Shown in pieces: positions 373 to 26,135 of a stretch of DNA of 26,135 nucleotides. This DNA is from a virus. The translations under genes and the position numbers were made by a program. Under the pieces are notes generated by a model. The model did not search any database. It was not told the DNA's origin and saw only the letters and a program-made list of their open reading frames with translations. The DNA is taken from positions 1 through 26,135 of IMG/VR virus record IMGVR_UViG_3300034375_012321, one strand, 5' to 3'. Position 1 is the first letter of the stretch. The number at the start of each line of letters is the position of its first letter.

Positions 373-2865
373 ATGCCCGCCAGTCCAGGCTCCAGTTCGT
401 TCTTCAACCTGATTGTTGACCATGGTGGCATCCAGGGTCTCACCGATGACGATCACACCCAGTACCCCTACTTCACCACGGGTACGGGCACTCCCGTAGG
501 CGCGGTCACACCCCAGCGCGTCGGCCACATCTACATCGACACCAGCGGGGAGAACGCCTGGATCGCCACGAACACGACCAACGCGGACTGGGAGCAAATC
601 GATGCGTCTGGCGGCGGCGCTTCGGTCAGCACTGGCTCGGGTGCGCCGACCAGCACCCCCAGTGCCGAGGGCGACATCTACATCGACACGACCAACGACC
701 AGAGCTACATGGCGGTGGGCACTGCCAGCAGCAGCGACTGGAAGCAGACGAGCAACCTCCCCCAGGGCATCACCTCGGTCAGCGATGACACCTCCCCCAC
801 CCTCGGCGGCGACCTGGATGGCGGCGGCTTCGCAATCACGAACATCGGTGATGTCGATGGTGTGGACATCAGTGCCCTCGTCTCGCTGACCATCGCCAAC
901 CTTCGCTCCGTAATCGGCGGTTTGACGGACACGCAGGGCGCGACGGCTGACCGCTTCGTCTATTGGGACGCGGACGGAACTCTCCAGCAATGCTCCCATG
1001 AGGACATCGTCACTCAGGCTCACAGCGATATGGGGATTGTGCCGCAGAAGAGGATCTCAACCACGGTGGATCCTACCGTGAACGATGATTCCGCTAGTGG
1101 CTATGCGGTTAACGACCTGTGGACCAACACCACGACCGACAACTCCTGGATCTGTCAAGACATTACGACGGGCGCGGCTGTCTGGACGCAGATTGATGGT
1201 GGTGGTGGTGGCGTGTCTGACCATGGAGCGTTGACTGGACTAGCCGACGATGACCACACTCAGTATTTCCGACACGACGGCACTCGACTGATGACTGCTG
1301 CCCTGAACATGGGCGGCTTCGACATCACCAATGTCGGGGATGTCGATGGTGTCGATGTGAGTGCGCTGGTGTCGCTCACCATCGCCAACCTTCGCAGCCT
1401 GATCGGTGGCCTGACTGACGCTCAGGGAGCTACTGCTGACCGTTTCCTGTATTGGGACAGTGACGGAACTCTTCAACAATGCTCGCACGAGGACATCGTT
1501 ACTCAGGGCTTCAGCGACCTGGGCATCGTCCCGCAAAAGCGTATCGCAACTACGGTTGATCCTACCGTTAACGATGACTCTGCCAGCGGTTATGCGGTCA
1601 ACGACCTCTGGACGAACACCACAGATGACACCTCCTGGATCTGTGTAGACGCGACTGCGACCGCCGCAGTCTGGAAGCCCATCGCCCTCACCAAGACGGG
1701 AACGGCGGCCCCTGCCGTCGCCCCGGACTTCGTGGGCCAACTCTTCCTCGACACGACCAACGAGAACATCTACATCGGCATCGACACGGTCAACGCTGCT
1801 GACTTCCTGCAAGTCAATGGCGGCGGTGGCGACCTCTGGAGCGATGTGGTAGACGCTGACATCGTGCCCGACGCGGACGGAACCCGCGACCTTGGTGCTG
1901 ACGCGACCCGCTTTGCTCAGGCTTACATCGACGAACTGCACAGCACGGGTGGACTCCTCGTCACCGAGTCAGCCGACCACACGAACACCCCTGCCGCTGG
2001 CAAGGGCGAGTTCTGGGTCCGCAACGACACGCCCTGCGTTCCTGTCTTCACGGACGATGCTGGTACGGACCATGTACTCAACGCGGCGGGAGGCGGCACT
2101 GATGTCAGTGTCCTCAGTGTCGAGAAAAACACCGCTGGCACGATCAACAAGGGTCAGGTGGTCTATGTCGCTGGCTACGACACGGACAAGCCGACTGTCG
2201 AGCTTGCGGACGCAGACGCGAGTGCGGCACTGCCGCCCATCGGTGTCGCCAACGCTTCCATCACGGACTCGACTGCGGGGGATGTCGTGATGAGCGGCAT
2301 CGTTGACGGCATGGACACCTCAGCCTTTACTGCTGGCGACAATGTTTACCTCGACACGACTGCTGGCGCACTAGTTGCAACGCGACCCGACGAGGAGTTC
2401 GTCTACCGCATCGGTCAGGTGATCTACAGCCATGCCTCTAACGGCGTACTGCGGGTCAACATCGAGCGCGTTCAAGGGCGTTACTGGATCTACGGCGTAG
2501 TCTGGGGCCTGTCCAACTCACAACGACTTGACAACTGGTTCGTTGGTCAAGCCACCGGAACGGTCGAGTCTGTCGAGTTCAGCGCTGCAAAGTATCTGTC
2601 AGGATCGGACGCTTCGAACTACTGGACCTTCGATATTCAGAATGCCTCTGAGTCCGACCGATCTATCCTCGCAGCCCCCTACGACATGACGACCGACCCA
2701 ACCTGGAAGACTTGGGTAGACCTCGGCGCAGTAAACGGCACGGCAGCCAACCTAGAAGTGACAAGGGGCGACCTCATCAACCTAGAAGTTCGCGAAACTG
2801 GCAACCCTCCATCACTCGGGACTCACTCGATCTCGATTCGCATTAAAGTCAAACCTGCTAACTAA
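373..2865 (+). CDS. Repeat-containing tail fibre / appendage protein
   Basis: An 830-residue protein predicted to be a host-contact fibre of the virion. The fibre motif DHGxxxGLxDDDHTQY occurs twice (residues 16-31 and 283-298). A block of about 125 residues starting near residue 152 recurs 163 residues later, beginning 'GF-ITN-GDVDGVD'. Several copies of a short module of the form G-x-P...G-x-YIDT...W are spread over residues 35-480. A 'DLGADATRFAQAYIDELHST' segment follows, then a domain around residues 575-700 with KGQVVYV..GD.VYLDT spacing that is common in phage fibres, and a beta-rich C-terminus. No chaperone or protease motif is seen. The ATG at 373 directly follows GAGGG, too close for a normal ribosome site. 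The stop overlaps the next start as TAATG, implying coupled translation. Confidence 0.8.
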   Translation: MPASPGSSSFFNLIVDHGGIQGLTDDDHTQYPYFTTGTGTPVGAVTPQRVGHIYIDTSGENAWIATNTTNADWEQIDASGGGASVSTGSGAPTSTPSAEGDIYIDTTNDQSYMAVGTASSSDWKQTSNLPQGITSVSDDTSPTLGGDLDGGGFAITNIGDVDGVDISALVSLTIANLRSVIGGLTDTQGATADRFVYWDADGTLQQCSHEDIVTQAHSDMGIVPQKRISTTVDPTVNDDSASGYAVNDLWTNTTTDNSWICQDITTGAAVWTQIDGGGGGVSDHGALTGLADDDHTQYFRHDGTRLMTAALNMGGFDITNVGDVDGVDVSALVSLTIANLRSLIGGLTDAQGATADRFLYWDSDGTLQQCSHEDIVTQGFSDLGIVPQKRIATTVDPTVNDDSASGYAVNDLWTNTTDDTSWICVDATATAAVWKPIALTKTGTAAPAVAPDFVGQLFLDTTNENIYIGIDTVNAADFLQVNGGGGDLWSDVVDADIVPDADGTRDLGADATRFAQAYIDELHSTGGLLVTESADHTNTPAAGKGEFWVRNDTPCVPVFTDDAGTDHVLNAAGGGTDVSVLSVEKNTAGTINKGQVVYVAGYDTDKPTVELADADASAALPPIGVANASITDSTAGDVVMSGIVDGMDTSAFTAGDNVYLDTTAGALVATRPDEEFVYRIGQVIYSHASNGVLRVNIERVQGRYWIYGVVWGLSNSQRLDNWFVGQATGTVESVEFSAAKYLSGSDASNYWTFDIQNASESDRSILAAPYDMTTDPTWKTWVDLGAVNGTAANLEVTRGDLINLEVRETGNPPSLGTHSISIRIKVKPAN

Positions 2866-4955
2866 TGGCACTCATCCCTTTCGGAAAAAGTGACCTTCGC
2901 AAGGGTGGCCTTGCGGCGGACGGTATCAACACAACCTCTACTAACTACTGGACCCGAGGGAACCCGTACTGGAACTTGATGTACCAGTCCGAGGACAACA
3001 TCCGTACAGACGGGTCTACCAGCCCGTTCGCCGGAACCCTCAACTCGGACGGCTACCCCCTGGACTACGGCACGGCGACGAACTGGATTGAATGGTATTG
3101 CTGGTCTGAAATCCAAGATGAATTCCCGTGGGGCATTGATTGGGTACTGACCTGGGAAGGTGGCGGCAACGGCACGGTCAAACCGAAGATAAATGGAATG
3201 ACCCCGACCGTCGATGAGGCGCAGCGGCGCGTGTACGCGGTAACGGAGTCCGACTTCACAATCGCCAGACCCCTCCGAATCGATGTGGCTGATATCGACG
3301 CATGGGGAACGGCCAACTACGCGGCAGACCCGATTGTCAATGTGCGCTTTGAGCCATTGTCGATGGAGGGGACTTGCGGATACGGCGAAGCGAACTTCAT
3401 CCGGCAGGATTACATCGACGCTTACTCTGAGTTCGATTACCTCCGCATGATGAACTTCCAGGCGACGAATCAGCAAGCGACGAATAGCTCGTGGGCAGAC
3501 CGTAAGCCGACCACCTACCGCACCTTCGCGCACGGTGCGTATAACGGCGGTGCTGGTCGTCACGCCCCGGCGGGTGCGCCTCTAACGGTCTGTCTTGAGA
3601 TCGCAAAACAGGTCGGCATCCGCCCCTGGGTGTGCATCCCCCATGAGTACGACGATGCCTCCATCACCGCGTTCTTCGAATACATCCGAGACAACTGGGA
3701 CTGGTCTTACGGCCACCCGATGATCGAGTGGACAAACGAGTTCTGGAACACAGGCTTCCAGCAGGGTCAATGGTGTCAGGCCCAAGGGCTGCTGCACGAC
3801 GCATCCACGCGCTATGTCACGCTCGGCAGCATGGCCGACTCGAACTTCAACGGGGATTACTTCCAGTCGAACAACGGTGAAGTCGCACCGGGCGGGTTTG
3901 ATACGACCAACGCTGCCTTCCATGTGTTCAAGCGCGAGAGCGGGGGCACGACCTATGTGCTGTACCACAACCAGACCTCTGGAAACTGGGAGGTCGCAAC
4001 CTCCACGAGTGACCCGGACACCTGGACTAACTCGCAGTCGGTGACGCTCGGCTTGCCGGAGACGGTCACGGCGGTAGATGACACCTGGGAAGACAGCACG
4101 ATTGGGCCGGACGAGGGTGATGCCAATGTCACCTATACCAGCCGCTTCTTCCGTGACCCATACCCGCTCTGGTATTACGGCGCGTTCCGTTCGACCCAAG
4201 CCATGAAGATCGGAAAAGCAATCATGGATGCTGCTGGCCTCGACTGGTCGGCGGTGGTCGAAGTCCAAACCGGGGGTAATGCAGCGCAGAACGATATCCT
4301 CAACTGCAATGTCTCGGAGCCGTTCGACAGCACCAGCACGGAGCGTGTTAAGGATCACCACACCTCAATCGGTGTGACCTTCTATGTTGGCGTTCAGCCT
4401 ACTGCAGAGCCGCTCTGGTCGAGCAACGGCGCGAAGGATGATTCCAACCCCGTTCCTGGCACAACTCAGAACGCGATCAACTGGGATCCCGACATCTCAA
4501 AGCTGTACGACTACCTGTACTACTACATCGACACCTACCACACCAACGCGGCGGAGAACGATTCGTGGACAGCGTGCTACAACCGCATTCACGCGGCGTG
4601 GCCGGACAGCGAGATCATCGGCTACGAGGGGAACCACCACTTCGTCCGCCACTTCGGCGGCGGCGAAACGGCAGACGGCCTAGCGTGGTTCCGCACCATG
4701 ATTCAGGAGTACACCGCCCCTGAGTGGCAAGAGTGGTATCGCCGGATGTTCTGGCGATGGACTCAGATCTTCTCTCAAGGTGGTCGAACGCCGTCCAAGT
4801 GTCACTTCGTCTTGGTGAACCCCGACGATGAGGACGGGCATTGGGCACTCTACTTCACGCTGGCCGATGCAAAGGCGCAAGTTGCTGACGGAACCTACAA
4901 GATGGCCGAGATCATGCGACTCGACACCGGGCACTCAACCAAGCTGACGGTCTAA
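2865..4955 (+). CDS. Virion-associated protein with clan GH-A-like glycoside hydrolase core
   Basis: A 696-residue protein translated from the TAATG junction with the fibre. Residues about 190-310 read as the first half of a TIM-barrel hydrolase: FDYLRMMNFQATN, a W..RK, then RPWVCIPHEYDD and IEWTNEFWN. In clan GH-A the Asn-Glu pair (here N291-E292) ends strand 4 and supplies the acid/base. A later IIGYEGNHH (E588) is well placed to be the nucleophile. These motifs resemble bacterial secreted proteins with 'SNEVWN' and 'YEGGQH' signatures. A beta-rich stretch at residues about 330-410 looks like an insertion. There is no signal peptide, and the position beside the fibre suggests a tail-borne depolymerase acting on host surface polysaccharide. 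The substrate is unknown and activity is unproven; the catalytic assignment is inference from motif order. Confidence 0.62.
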   Translation: MALIPFGKSDLRKGGLAADGINTTSTNYWTRGNPYWNLMYQSEDNIRTDGSTSPFAGTLNSDGYPLDYGTATNWIEWYCWSEIQDEFPWGIDWVLTWEGGGNGTVKPKINGMTPTVDEAQRRVYAVTESDFTIARPLRIDVADIDAWGTANYAADPIVNVRFEPLSMEGTCGYGEANFIRQDYIDAYSEFDYLRMMNFQATNQQATNSSWADRKPTTYRTFAHGAYNGGAGRHAPAGAPLTVCLEIAKQVGIRPWVCIPHEYDDASITAFFEYIRDNWDWSYGHPMIEWTNEFWNTGFQQGQWCQAQGLLHDASTRYVTLGSMADSNFNGDYFQSNNGEVAPGGFDTTNAAFHVFKRESGGTTYVLYHNQTSGNWEVATSTSDPDTWTNSQSVTLGLPETVTAVDDTWEDSTIGPDEGDANVTYTSRFFRDPYPLWYYGAFRSTQAMKIGKAIMDAAGLDWSAVVEVQTGGNAAQNDILNCNVSEPFDSTSTERVKDHHTSIGVTFYVGVQPTAEPLWSSNGAKDDSNPVPGTTQNAINWDPDISKLYDYLYYYIDTYHTNAAENDSWTACYNRIHAAWPDSEIIGYEGNHHFVRHFGGGETADGLAWFRTMIQEYTAPEWQEWYRRMFWRWTQIFSQGGRTPSKCHFVLVNPDDEDGHWALYFTLADAKAQVADGTYKMAEIMRLDTGHSTKLTV

Positions 4956-23400: not shown

Positions 23401-24896
23401 TAGGCCAACAGGCTGTGCGACACCAAGTGCGCGGAACTTTCCCCAAGGGCAGCCAGAGCCTGGAGAACATCCGTAAGGGTGAGAGCATCATCCTGGGTGA
23501 CGCGGGTCTGACCAGCCGCCTGTTGGACAACACGATTCCAGCATCTCAGGAGATGTCGGAGTTCTGGAAGTTCTACGACCGAACGAACGCCCTCTACAAG
23601 TCTACGCAGACGGTGTTTAACCCTGCGTTCTTCATTCGTAACACCCTTACCAACTTCTTCCAAACCAGGGCAGCCGGGGGCAGTATTCGTAACTTCGGTG
23701 CAGCACAACTTGTCGCTGCTCGGATGCTTGGAAACCTCCCTGACAACACTGCAATCGACGGCTCTGGGGTTGTTGGATTCAAAGGTCGCACCAGGGCGTT
23801 GGAGAAGTTGAAGGCCGACGCTACTAACGAAGCCGTCGAAGCTCGCCTTGCCGCCCGTTTCGATGACGCAGATGACCTTGTCCCTATCTACCAAGTTGGG
23901 GACACCCCAATGGGGGAAGATGAACTCCTCAAGTTTTTCGCAGAGCGCGGTCTGTTCAACGACCTGAAGGTTACTGAAGAACTTCGCGTCGGAGCTATGA
24001 CTCCTGAAGAGTTTGTAGCTGGTTTGAAGCGAGGCGAGAAGTCGCGCATGGAGGATTTCCGCGACAGTGCATCTGCCGTCGAAATCCACAACCGTCTCTC
24101 GGCGGCGATGACCCTCATTCTGGATGGTAAGTCCCCAGAGCTTGCTTTGCAGAAAGCCCTGGATGTCCACGGCGATTACTCCAAGCTGTCGAAGTTTGAG
24201 CGTGATGTTGGCCGTCGAGTTGCGGCCTTCTATACCTTCTCCCGTCGAGTGCTTCCACAGATGGCAAAGTCCATCGATAAGGATCCAAGGATGTTGACGG
24301 CCATCAACCGCCTGTCCAACAACTCGGACTGGATTGGTGTTGACCAGTATGGCAACCTCAAGATCGAGCATGATGGTCTGGAGGCTAACCTTAGCTCGAT
24401 TGCACTGCCGGTCGAAGCTGCCGCACTGATCGTCGGAACTATTGACTCGGTTAATAGTTTTGCGGGCCTTGACGAGCAAGCGCCTAGAGGTTTAGGTCAA
24501 CCCAGAGGTGTCACCAAGTTGGCTGGCGGTGGTACTGCGGGCCTGTTGATGTCTCTCTTCGGTATGGACCCGAACCGAGAGCCTGGACTTGGCTCTGCGG
24601 CGGAGTACACAGTGCAAGCTAACACCTTTACTCGGATGGCGATGAAGTACGCCGATGCCGTCTACAACGACAAACCACTGGACGAGAACCTTTGGGCAGC
24701 CACTTTCCTCCCGGTCAAGATCCGTAAAGACCCAGCCTACCGCCGCAAACAGCGCGTAAAGATTGGCGATGCGCTGCTCCGAGAAATCAACTTTGAGATC
24801 GGTCAAACCAATAACCCCAACAAAATCCGCAAGCTCAAAGAAGAGCAAGCCCGAGTCCTAGAAGCCCGCAACTCGCTGTTGCAGGAACTCCGATGA
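20442..24896 (+). CDS. Giant internal virion (ejection) protein; T7 gp16-like by position
   Basis: A 1484-residue protein, the largest of the ejection trio (T7 gp16 is 1318). The N-terminus (MSNWLERGINATIGLPYQLI... GFLLDTLLDPSTYLTFG) has amphipathic helices. The middle (about residues 550-770) is long charged helix. Near residue 1059 is VFNPAFFIRNTLTNFFQT, a short motif I associate with large phage virion proteins, and AAFYTFSRRVLPQMAKSI follows near residue 1265. A hydrophobic stretch IALPVEAAALIVGTID (about 1317-1332) may contact membrane. No lytic transglycosylase signature (the N-terminal enzyme of T7 gp16) was recognised, so cell-wall opening may come from elsewhere. AAAGAGG at 20424-20430 precedes ATG 20442. 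The stop overlaps the next start as ATGA. The call rests on gene order, size and composition. Confidence 0.65.
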   Translation: MSNWLERGINATIGLPYQLITRAWYAMEDEDTELFSAQGILAPELIPVLGAFMGDHSRAKYASDIALDIYDKRLSGTQGFLLDTLLDPSTYLTFGTSGAFKGLGSAARNLNRAGGKSARVRNLMVKHKAAGSTYDEFVEELKTLPEAKTDRRIKKVINMNRGGFGTTKQAEKIRARRLKDAGKEVPTDKKVTLKDVIEQGEVEELALQFPFLASSRVVIGAGKVGKFLDAATLGRLNKQRGWFSNFGRASLAPAKFVNDYFASPILKSTVIPAMDALSGNRASWMGAFLSGLTKKVDPAVKTTLQGASKAYENFVSESSKFFQGDFTFQRAAKAANALHPESLVPTTVLFSPGKKKYQSKKLADLLLVEESFILEELASGKTVDDILEEQFSFRYVDETAKFRMQAKAEGVDLTDPDAVAKFDQKLRKIFINDRDLGSIPALDYGNMSRVDAYIAARKSGVKPSELRKLVKKHNGNIQRAFEDIYGALNPAIDANSDIYKAFEKGQLDIGIAAQLPKSYENAPGSVRLGWLKGKEIRDYLTRKFDPLGGKSVNKAINEMEFEGQRRLDSASRAVFQDTREIHRDMESLVAELARIGNTSEIRTFDDLDKVLGMHQQATPQVEEVLAVLRRLETSGTKAAKTELANLEELAQRMTGAAELAKIASPKMEDAARELAELAQELRTAIYDKDLVAGKIRLTDTFGSRLESVGEFIRTSNHEALEKMFGISDQTPKAKQLLDKLLSQNAKLARYASGLGADDQLAYFPRLFDKDLRKSLNRLFDRAEAAGMDNQLVKSLKRRVEARNLTVQEYNELLIEARKVGVGDEAFEETSKFLRIQRPVAPEALKAAKSILGRKIMNDQPYLSDLMEAANKAQDPKTKKLLEKAVRDAAAPMNESWLSAFAHRSNLAKRQLVAEDYIDGILREGNKHADSRLTLMSGTVNKVHRVGDDTVIELQVADGDMRLLNVSEMGRSGMGVRNMGKVSKGKTIGQQAVRHQVRGTFPKGSQSLENIRKGESIILGDAGLTSRLLDNTIPASQEMSEFWKFYDRTNALYKSTQTVFNPAFFIRNTLTNFFQTRAAGGSIRNFGAAQLVAARMLGNLPDNTAIDGSGVVGFKGRTRALEKLKADATNEAVEARLAARFDDADDLVPIYQVGDTPMGEDELLKFFAERGLFNDLKVTEELRVGAMTPEEFVAGLKRGEKSRMEDFRDSASAVEIHNRLSAAMTLILDGKSPELALQKALDVHGDYSKLSKFERDVGRRVAAFYTFSRRVLPQMAKSIDKDPRMLTAINRLSNNSDWIGVDQYGNLKIEHDGLEANLSSIALPVEAAALIVGTIDSVNSFAGLDEQAPRGLGQPRGVTKLAGGGTAGLLMSLFGMDPNREPGLGSAAEYTVQANTFTRMAMKYADAVYNDKPLDENLWAATFLPVKIRKDPAYRRKQRVKIGDALLREINFEIGQTNNPNKIRKLKEEQARVLEARNSLLQELR

Positions 24897-25057
24897 CCAT
24901 CCCCCTCACCGAAGCCCTCCTCGGCCTGATCGCCGCCATTCTCCTGTGGACAGTCACAGAGCTATGGAAAATCTCTAAGGTTGTCGCTGGTATGCAAGCG
25001 CACTCTGAGGACACCAACCGCCGTCTAGAACGCCTTGAAGATCGTACTGCTCTTTAG
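24893..25057 (+). CDS. 54-residue single-pass membrane protein, lysis candidate
   Basis: A short gene starting at ATG 24893, overlapping the ejection-protein stop (ATGA). It encodes MTIPLTEALLGLIAAILLW... with one clear membrane helix (about residues 6-25) and a polar, charged tail with heptad-like spacing (EDTNRRLERLEDRTAL). A small one-helix protein with a cytoplasmic or periplasmic coiled tail fits a pinholin, an antiholin or the inner-membrane half of a spanin, though it is short for the last. It overlaps the 94-residue gene by 23 bp in another frame, the kind of nesting seen in lysis cassettes. Expression is likely coupled to the upstream gene. Role inferred. Confidence 0.6.
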   Translation: MTIPLTEALLGLIAAILLWTVTELWKISKVVAGMQAHSEDTNRRLERLEDRTAL

Positions 25058-25319
25058 CCTAATCCTGGCATCATGCGGGCTGCTTCCAACCAACAGCGCC
25101 CCAGCAGAGTTGGGAAAGTCTCCGACCACCACCCAAGCCCTAGTGGCCGCAGTGCCGGAAGCGGTGACGGCATTGACGGGGTTGGTGGAGAGCCTGATCA
25201 TCACGGCAATCATCGCGTCCCTGATGTTCCGCTCAGTGAGGATGGCAGTAGCAGCGATGCTGGTCGCGTTCTACCAACGCATCGAGAACTTCTTCAAGCC
25301 CTCAAGTACATCATCCTAG
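25035..25319 (+). CDS. 94-residue lipoprotein with C-terminal membrane segment, candidate unimolecular spanin or holin
   Basis: Starts at TTG 25035. The N-terminus is a compact signal (MKIVLLFSLILASCG) with a lipobox L11-A12-S13-C14, predicting a lipid-anchored Cys14. A short polar linker rich in Pro/Thr (about residues 17-34) follows. Then come hydrophobic stretches at about residues 36-52 and 53-81, ending YQRIENFFKP. An N-terminal lipobox plus a C-terminal transmembrane helix is the layout of unimolecular spanins such as T1 gp11, which fuse outer and inner membranes. The linker here is far shorter than in T1 gp11, so a holin-like role or a different membrane protein is also possible. The lipobox is directly visible; function is inference. 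Confidence 0.5.
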   Translation: MKIVLLFSLILASCGLLPTNSAPAELGKSPTTTQALVAAVPEAVTALTGLVESLIITAIIASLMFRSVRMAVAAMLVAFYQRIENFFKPSSTSS

Positions 25320-25359
25320 TCCTGATTTTGGTGAGCCTCCTGGTACTATTGAGAGCGCG

Positions 25360-25548
25360 ATGGACTCCCTCTACGACAAACTGCTAGATGCCTGTGTCGA
25401 ATACGGACCCCTCATCATGGATCTTTGCGTCTGCCGCCAGTGCGGTGTCACCCAGTTTGTTGTCGTGCCCGTCGATCGTGGCTTTGAAGGCGGACTTTGC
25501 CCTGAGTGCGGCAAACCCGGACTCGATCAAGTAGAGGTAGAGCCTTGA
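25360..25548 (+). CDS. Zinc-ribbon miniprotein
   Basis: A 62-residue protein with paired cysteine knuckles C25-x2-C28 (VCRQCGV) and C47-x2-C50 (LCPECGK), separated by a beta-like stretch (TQFVVVPVDRGFEGG). This is a textbook single zinc ribbon with a helical N-terminus and acidic C-terminus (QVEVEP). Function unknown; such proteins often bind nucleic acid or protein partners. The stop TGA at 25546 overlaps the TTG start of the phosphoesterase gene (TTGA), so the two may be co-translated. A 40-bp gap before the ATG holds no clear ribosome site. Confidence 0.7.
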   Translation: MDSLYDKLLDACVEYGPLIMDLCVCRQCGVTQFVVVPVDRGFEGGLCPECGKPGLDQVEVEP

Positions 25549-26135
25549 AAACCCTGGTACTCAACGATGTCCATGTGCCTTTCCACAGTGCCAAGTGGCA
25601 GAGGAAGGTGGAGGAGTACATCACCAAAGATCAGCCCGACAAGATCGTCCTAGCCGGGGACATCGCTGACTACCACGCCCTGTCGCAGCACCGCCGCAAC
25701 CCCAAGTGGGAGGACAACCTTGAAGCCGAGGTGGCCGCGCACGGCAACTGGCTCGATGCCCTCCGCGTCCTAGCTAAGAAGGCCGAGATCGTCTACATCG
25801 AGGGCAACCACGAAGCGCGTTGGAACAGTTACATCCAGAACCGCGCCCCCGTGATCCGCAACCTTGGCGTTGACTGGCCTGAGTATGTGGGCATCGCGGA
25901 CTTCGACATCCGCATGGTCAGGTCAGGCCACAAGGTCGGATGCGGCCAAGGGCAAAAGGTCGCTATCTATCACGGCCACGAAGGGCGGCTCGGGTCGAGC
26001 AAGTTCGGTGGCGGGTTGGCCCTGCGGTTCGCGCTCAACCACGGCTGCAACGCGCACATCGGGCATACCCACAAACAGGGCACACTGTTCGGGCAGTGCG
26101 GTAAGAAGCTCGTCTACGGTCACGAAGGTGGCTTC
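25545..26135 (+). CDS. Calcineurin-like metallophosphoesterase (3' end beyond window)
   Basis: An open frame from TTG 25545 that runs to the window edge (197 codons, no stop), so the C-terminus is missing. The five metal-ligand motifs of the calcineurin-like superfamily are visible in order: D8-V-H10, G38-D39, G87-N88-H89-E90, H143-G-H145, and G173-H174-T-H176 (NDVH, GDIADYH, GNHEAR, HGHEG, GHTHK). These bind two metals and cleave phosphomono- or phosphodiesters. The substrate cannot be told from this; phage members may act on nucleotides or nucleic acids, and some are assembled into virions. It begins TTGA, overlapping the upstream zinc-ribbon stop. The strong motif set makes the family call firm even though partial. 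Confidence 0.92.
   Translation, partial: MKTLVLNDVHVPFHSAKWQRKVEEYITKDQPDKIVLAGDIADYHALSQHRRNPKWEDNLEAEVAAHGNWLDALRVLAKKAEIVYIEGNHEARWNSYIQNRAPVIRNLGVDWPEYVGIADFDIRMVRSGHKVGCGQGQKVAIYHGHEGRLGSSKFGGGLALRFALNHGCNAHIGHTHKQGTLFGQCGKKLVYGHEGGF

Follow-up and report, generated by a model that had tools for sequence, protein, structure and literature searches.

What is encoded by the tightly packed small frames near the right end of the virus record IMGVR_UViG_3300034375_012321? The window that we analyzed is the whole of this record, 26,135 bases with a right end that falls inside genes, and its initial annotation, made from the sequence alone, had singled out three overlapping membrane-protein frames in 24893-25387 as a possible unusual lysis cassette. 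All three are present as open frames, as described, and they lie on the plus strand, as do the two genes that follow them. The layering of frames stands, and the idea of three separate small genes is not supported, since the second frame, encoding a lipobox-containing lipoprotein, and the third, with its strongly hydrophobic end, appear to be one gene with a -1 frameshift. Taken as a whole, we think it fairly probable that this is one gene with two products, including a membrane-spanning shifted lipoprotein.

The zero-frame lipobox open reading frame (ORF; 25035-25319) starts with TTG and encodes a lipoprotein of 94 residues with one long hydrophobic helix. Its first 14 codons (25035-25076) specify the signal sequence and lipobox that both predicted products would have in common, ending in the LASC motif with its lipobox cysteine, Cys14, at 25074-25076, while the third frame, taken as a separate ORF (25073-25387), has an ATG start and 104 residues with the hydrophobic C terminus ALKYIILVLILVSLLVLLRARW. 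Searches of viral contigs, genome contigs, and a phage collection (the last by tblastn) recovered relatives of the lipobox protein in three lineages only. The first consists of the window and G001 (36.5 kb), which is identical to the window over 25035-25387. The second consists of G002 and G003, in which the gene is identical (347/347 bases) and the protein 67% identical to that of the window; the locus that we call L004 lies in G003. The third is L012 (6.7 kb), with a protein 64% identical to that of the window. The lipobox reads LASC, LASC, and AASC at Cys14 across the lineages, followed by S or G, and conservation of this frame, at 64-67% protein identity to two other lineages, exceeds chance in these alignments. 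Other candidate relatives were rejected, namely L118 (an out-of-frame match inside a capsid-type gene), L099 (a pattern match within an unrelated gene), and L105-L113, which are unrelated reading frames and account for nine of the 13 pattern matches. Judging from their genes, the three carrier lineages are different kinds of phage with unrelated backgrounds: T7-like phages of Mesorhizobium and Roseobacter have large terminases up to 57% identical to the one in L012, the large terminase of G003 has T4-like gp17 proteins among its best matches (32-35%), and that of the window has weak matches alone (23-27%).

The feature on which the frameshift reading turns is a slippery heptamer. When in-phase XXXYYYZ heptamers were listed in the lipobox ORF of each lineage, GGGAAAG was found in the window (25112-25118, read as G_GGA_AAG in the phase of the ORF) and in L004 (8078-8084), and GGGAAAA in L012 (4237-4243), all at the same invariant Gly27-Lys28 pair. 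The ORF contains no second such heptamer, except for an overlapping TTTGGGA in L012. The -1 frame opens before the heptamer, by 3 nucleotides in L004 and 6 in L012, and in all three lineages it is open from there to past the ORF stop. In a synonymous-codon simulation that held the zero-frame protein fixed and drew codons from the usage of each genome, the chance of a heptamer together with an open -1 frame was 0.005, 0.0004, and 0.005 for the individual lineages, values that are not simply multiplied because the lineages share descent. Such a heptamer is carried by 138 of 513 deduplicated control genes from the loci examined; in just two of the 513 does it lie 50 or more codons ahead of the stop and lead into a -1 frame that remains open past that stop, and both are the lipobox gene (in G003 and in L019, which is the L012 record). 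The G001 copy is missing among these matches, most likely because the greedy choice of ORFs kept the longer 104-residue ORF in the -1 frame. Among the 32 lipoprotein-like ORFs in the loci examined, a heptamer leading to a transmembrane (TM) segment occurs only in the three members of the lipobox family. G_GGA_AAG is also the frameshift site of lambda G/GT. In two reports, the same sequence is rated highly shift-prone in Escherichia coli (PMC5009743) and named as the signal for capsid frameshifting in phage Privateer, for which two bands and a longer protein are described (PMC7881722). We also weighed a shift site towards the 3' end of the ORF and set it aside, as no conserved slippery sequence was seen there by eye; of the X_XXN tetramers in this part, L012 has one at codon 87 and shares one at codon 90 with L004, and the window has neither. 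We infer from the heptamer and the open frame that ribosomes slip here; -1 frameshifting accounts for the sequence better than the alternatives do, and we consider it likely.

Past the stop of the lipobox ORF, the -1 frame encodes a hydrophobic segment and a short tail in all three lineages, and in all three its end falls within the next gene or at that gene's start. The 17-residue hydropathy peak in this stretch is 2.97 in the window and 2.55 and 2.35 in the other lineages. Among 570 control ORF ends read on in the same frame, none reaches 2.8, five reach 2.5, and 18 reach 2.3, in a set that is not deduplicated and includes carriers of the gene, so that the counts at 2.5 and 2.3 may include copies. 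By this measure, the 3' part of the third frame is more than chance. Codon usage points the same way. Between L004 and L012, whose DNA alignment is gap-free up to the -1 stop, the same codon is used at 14/39 conserved residues before alignment column 69 and at 22/26 after it (Fisher p 1.2e-4), or, by region, at 4/16 upstream of the slip site, 10/22 in the linker, 12/16 in the juxtamembrane part, and 10/11 in the TM overlap. In the juxtamembrane and TM part, the -1 proteins are more similar than under a codon null, with p between 0.0017 and 0.04 according to the codon identity assumed. The initial annotation had named conservation of a single frame in relatives as an outcome that would count against an overlapping cassette; two frames, not one, are kept.

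If slippage occurs as proposed, the fusion products would be 117, 115, and 115 residues long in the window, L004, and L012, respectively. Each would comprise Cys14, a linker of 72-74 residues (74 in the window), an 18-residue hydropathy peak of 2.4-2.9, and a basic tail. The linker is hydrophilic (mean hydropathy -0.8 to -1.0) and free of cysteine in 3/3 lineages. In the window, the -1 extension (25118-25387) contributes the remainder of this linker, the TM segment, and the basic tail, and across lineages it overlaps the parent frame for 67-70 codons. The predicted C-terminal TM segment (ALKYIILVLILVSLLVLL, 25298-25351, followed by RAR) has an 18-residue hydropathy of 2.91 and is modeled by AlphaFold2 as a helix with a predicted local distance difference test score (pLDDT) of about 90; with the three sequences as input, the -1 part is modeled as an unordered linker without strands at low pLDDT, followed by a confident helix. 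The unshifted product differs in that a spacer of 28-33 residues precedes a long predicted helix, residues 32-87 (AlphaFold2, mean pLDDT 68), within which lie its most hydrophobic 18 residues (AVTALTGLVESLIITAII, 25161-25214). At 0.34 nm per residue, the extended reach is about 25 nm for the shifted spacer vs. about 10 nm for the unshifted one. With a periplasm of about 20-25 nm to cross, the shifted form alone would be long enough. That a C-terminal TM segment resides in the same polypeptide as the lipobox depends on the frameshift being real.

This architecture is that of a unimolecular spanin (u-spanin). Spanins are presented in PMC6139136 as a poorly understood class of membrane-fusing proteins, the overlapped ones of which are often missed by gene callers; u-spanins are defined there by a lipobox and a C-terminal TM segment, number 58 in 677 genomes, and have a periplasmic cysteine in 0/58 cases. 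The shifted product would combine the same features, namely an N-terminal lipobox, a C-terminal TM segment, and a cysteine-free periplasmic part. The same source sorts u-spanins into 13 families, six of them singletons, and similarity to a known spanin is therefore not required. The suggestion in the initial annotation of a u-spanin-like lysis protein is thus plausible, but the unusually short linker that it described belongs to the unshifted product. Given frameshifting, we lean slightly towards the shifted product being a u-spanin, a role that we infer from its architecture and, in L012, from its position. There, it is flanked by virion-type genes and, directly 3', by the gene for a small terminase of the T7 gp18 type (PF11123; phrog_891), with a gene for a 161-residue membrane protein upstream.

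Comparison with known systems brings out both likenesses and differences. With u-spanins of the T1 gp11 type, the shifted product would share the N-terminal lipobox, cysteine-free periplasmic linker, single C-terminal TM segment, and expected N-out/C-in topology. It differs in being a predicted product of -1 frameshifting in a gene with a different lipoprotein in its zero frame, in having a linker modeled as disordered (in a three-sequence model) where the T1 family has a beta-rich domain, and in lacking a sequence match to that family. As in lambda Rz/Rz1 and P2 LysB/LysC, two membrane proteins would come from two frames of one DNA. However, those pairs have their own starts and a partner with an N-terminal TM segment, while here a common start and lipoprotein signal would lead to differing C termini, and L012, without a usual start in its second frame, falls outside the embedded class of two-component spanins. 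The XXXYYYZ heptamer and common N terminus recall phage -1 frameshift genes such as T7 gene 10A/10B and the tail chaperones, including those with GGGAAAG sites, but the present case concerns a membrane lipoprotein, with a long overlap of the extension with the parent frame. To our knowledge, all phage genes known to use programmed -1 frameshifting are for virion assembly or structure. A literature search, confined to open-licence papers, yielded no recognized frameshifted spanin. The frameshifts treated in the passages available from PMC3556154, PMC4283147, PMC9915841, and PMC7881722 concern tail chaperones, capsids, or split genes, and the corresponding passages of PMC6139136 place embedded o-spanin genes in +1 and -1 registers and make no mention of programmed frameshifting.

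We propose the following model. Ribosomes would start at TTG 25035 and make the lipoprotein signal; most would stay in frame and produce the 94-residue lipoprotein with its long hydrophobic helix, and some would slip by -1 at G_GGA_AAG (25112-25118) and produce the 117-residue lipoprotein ending at 25387. The slipped form would probably act as a u-spanin, with its lipid anchor in the outer membrane, its TM helix in the inner membrane, and its extended linker crossing the periplasm, and after cleavage of the cell wall it could fuse or disrupt the two membranes. The 94-residue form would be too short for the same action; as a guess, it may serve as a partner or brake, produced in fixed excess.

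Several observations weigh against this model. At the slip site, downstream RNA structure is not consistently outstanding in the three lineages (z -2.2, -1.7, and -0.5), and a Shine-Dalgarno-like stimulator, GGAGGA, 8 nucleotides upstream, is present in L004 alone of the three. The codon constraint seen between L004 and L012 follows the same trend but is weaker against the window lineage (p 0.26 and 0.05), a plain substitution test gives p 0.18 for the post-stop stretch alone and p 0.028 with the overlap included, and there are only three independent lineages. Similarity in the linker does not exceed the codon null (p 0.15-0.40); with excess conservation in the juxtamembrane and TM part and none in the linker, it is the membrane part that looks constrained, and the linker seems free to vary. 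Neither the zero-frame nor the fused products have a spanin match in PHROGs. Among the proteins scanned, which come from fragment records, no endolysin, holin, or spanin was recognized, in agreement with the initial annotation, which had seen no endolysin or holin nearby; the best is a holin match of the lipobox protein itself, sub-threshold at E 0.83. Moreover, no lysis cassette is evident around the gene in G003, where it lies among unrelated small genes, 5' of a basic protein that we take to be DUF6321-like and of a GH10 enzyme.

These last two points, the missing lysis genes and the surroundings in G003, favor an account in which frameshifting is real and its products are envelope lipoproteins for exclusion or for modification of the infected-cell surface. 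Against it stand the position beside the small terminase in L012 and the layout of lipobox, C-terminal TM segment, and cysteine-free linker, which is that of u-spanins (PMC6139136), and we hold a role outside lysis to be improbable, if still worth bearing in mind. The frames might instead be two separate overlapping genes, for the lipobox protein and for a tiny holin-like TM protein with its own -1 start, coupled to the next gene. L004 offers such a start, a single TTG (8258) right before the TM segment with AGGA 7 nucleotides upstream, which would yield a 29-residue TM protein. In T7-like relatives, moreover, the place before the small terminase often holds a small membrane gene, frequently overlapping the small-terminase start, for example the annotated holin of Xanthomonas phage f20-Xaj. 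However, the -1 frame of L012 lacks ATG, GTG, and TTG codons altogether, and the usual starts in the window are ATG 25073, far upstream, and TTG and GTG codons within the TM segment. Starts in this frame differ or are missing across lineages, and there is therefore no shared start; ATG 25073, which the initial annotation had taken as the start of the third frame, is not conserved, and a non-standard start for a -1 TM protein was considered, with none common to the lineages. Two genes would also leave the same-site heptamer of the three lineages unexplained, and we regard this arrangement as rather unlikely. It is a little less probable still that the zero-frame lipoprotein alone is functional, as a short u-spanin or otherwise (for example in superinfection exclusion), and that the -1 frame is accidental. 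Protein identity is higher in the zero frame than in the -1 frame (64-67% vs. 33-43%), and codons for hydrophobic residues, read at -1, tend to specify hydrophilic ones, so a hydrophilic linker would come free. Yet an accidental frame fits poorly with the recurrence of openness, heptamer, and hydrophobic end in three lineages, with the codon constraint at the 3' overlap, or with the gap-free alignment of L004 and L012 to the -1 stop.

Around the gene, the order at the right end of the window is a 1,484-residue gene, ORF1, the lipobox ORF, the hydrophobic frame ending at 25387, a gene for a 62-residue CxxC protein, and a metallophosphoesterase gene. ORF1 (24893-25057), the first of the three layered frames, overlaps the lipobox ORF by 23 nucleotides and encodes 54 residues with an N-terminal TM segment and a charged tail; it has no PHROGs or Pfam match and no counterpart next to the lipobox gene in the lineages of L004 and L012, and it is possibly a small protein for lysis or of the membrane that is peculiar to this genome. 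The 62-residue protein (25360-25548), the start of which overlaps the end of the -1 frame, is zinc-ribbon-like, with two CxxC pairs and Zn-ribbon matches in Pfam that are all sub-threshold. The calcineurin-like metallophosphoesterase gene (25545-26135) starts with TTG and runs off the record (PF00149, E 1.8e-11; phrog_221, E 4e-28). A motif M[DK]NLYTL[IL]TE opens small G003 proteins (L004 8340; G003 38731-38994), with a loose echo, MDSLYDKLLDAC, in the window at 25360, and this type of N terminus is possibly a shared targeting tag. Elsewhere, the window encodes a 696-residue protein (2865-4955) that by eye resembles a glycoside hydrolase and, at E 0.01, matches nothing in Pfam or PHROGs. The GH10 glycoside hydrolase (PF00331, E 5.5e-54) just 3' of the module lies at L004 8667-9740, equal to G003 37010-38083, and in G001 (L014, 32866-34085, minus strand) an adjacent gene pair resembles by eye QueE and QueC of 7-deazaguanine synthesis. 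Our survey of small-terminase loci covered 51 of 80, a manual selection that leaves out near-duplicates, and in addition two named phages. In 8/51 of them (L022, L023, L024, L026, L032, L038, L059, and L062), a family with a coiled coil and a C-terminal TM segment ends at or near the small-terminase start, and is likely an uncharacterized holin-type family. In L020 and L021 (2577-3065), a different lipoprotein of 162 residues with two hydrophobic stretches overlaps the small-terminase start and is a candidate u-spanin.

A further step, which we offer tentatively and think doubtful, is that this is a lysis gene with a dual function, the ratio of an active long-linker spanin to a short-linker brake or partner being set by programmed frameshifting, and that it is carried between unrelated phages as a compact module, one T7-like, one with a T4-like terminase, and a third type. 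If true, such a gene would be the spanin counterpart of the holin/antiholin control by dual starts. A u-spanin made by frameshifting would, if real, reveal a new way for such proteins to originate and for their dose to be set, and would give concrete form to the speculation in PMC6139136 that lipoproteins lengthened by a C-terminal TM segment gave rise to u-spanins. It also suggests that slippery sites may be worth searching for in the lipoprotein genes of phages.

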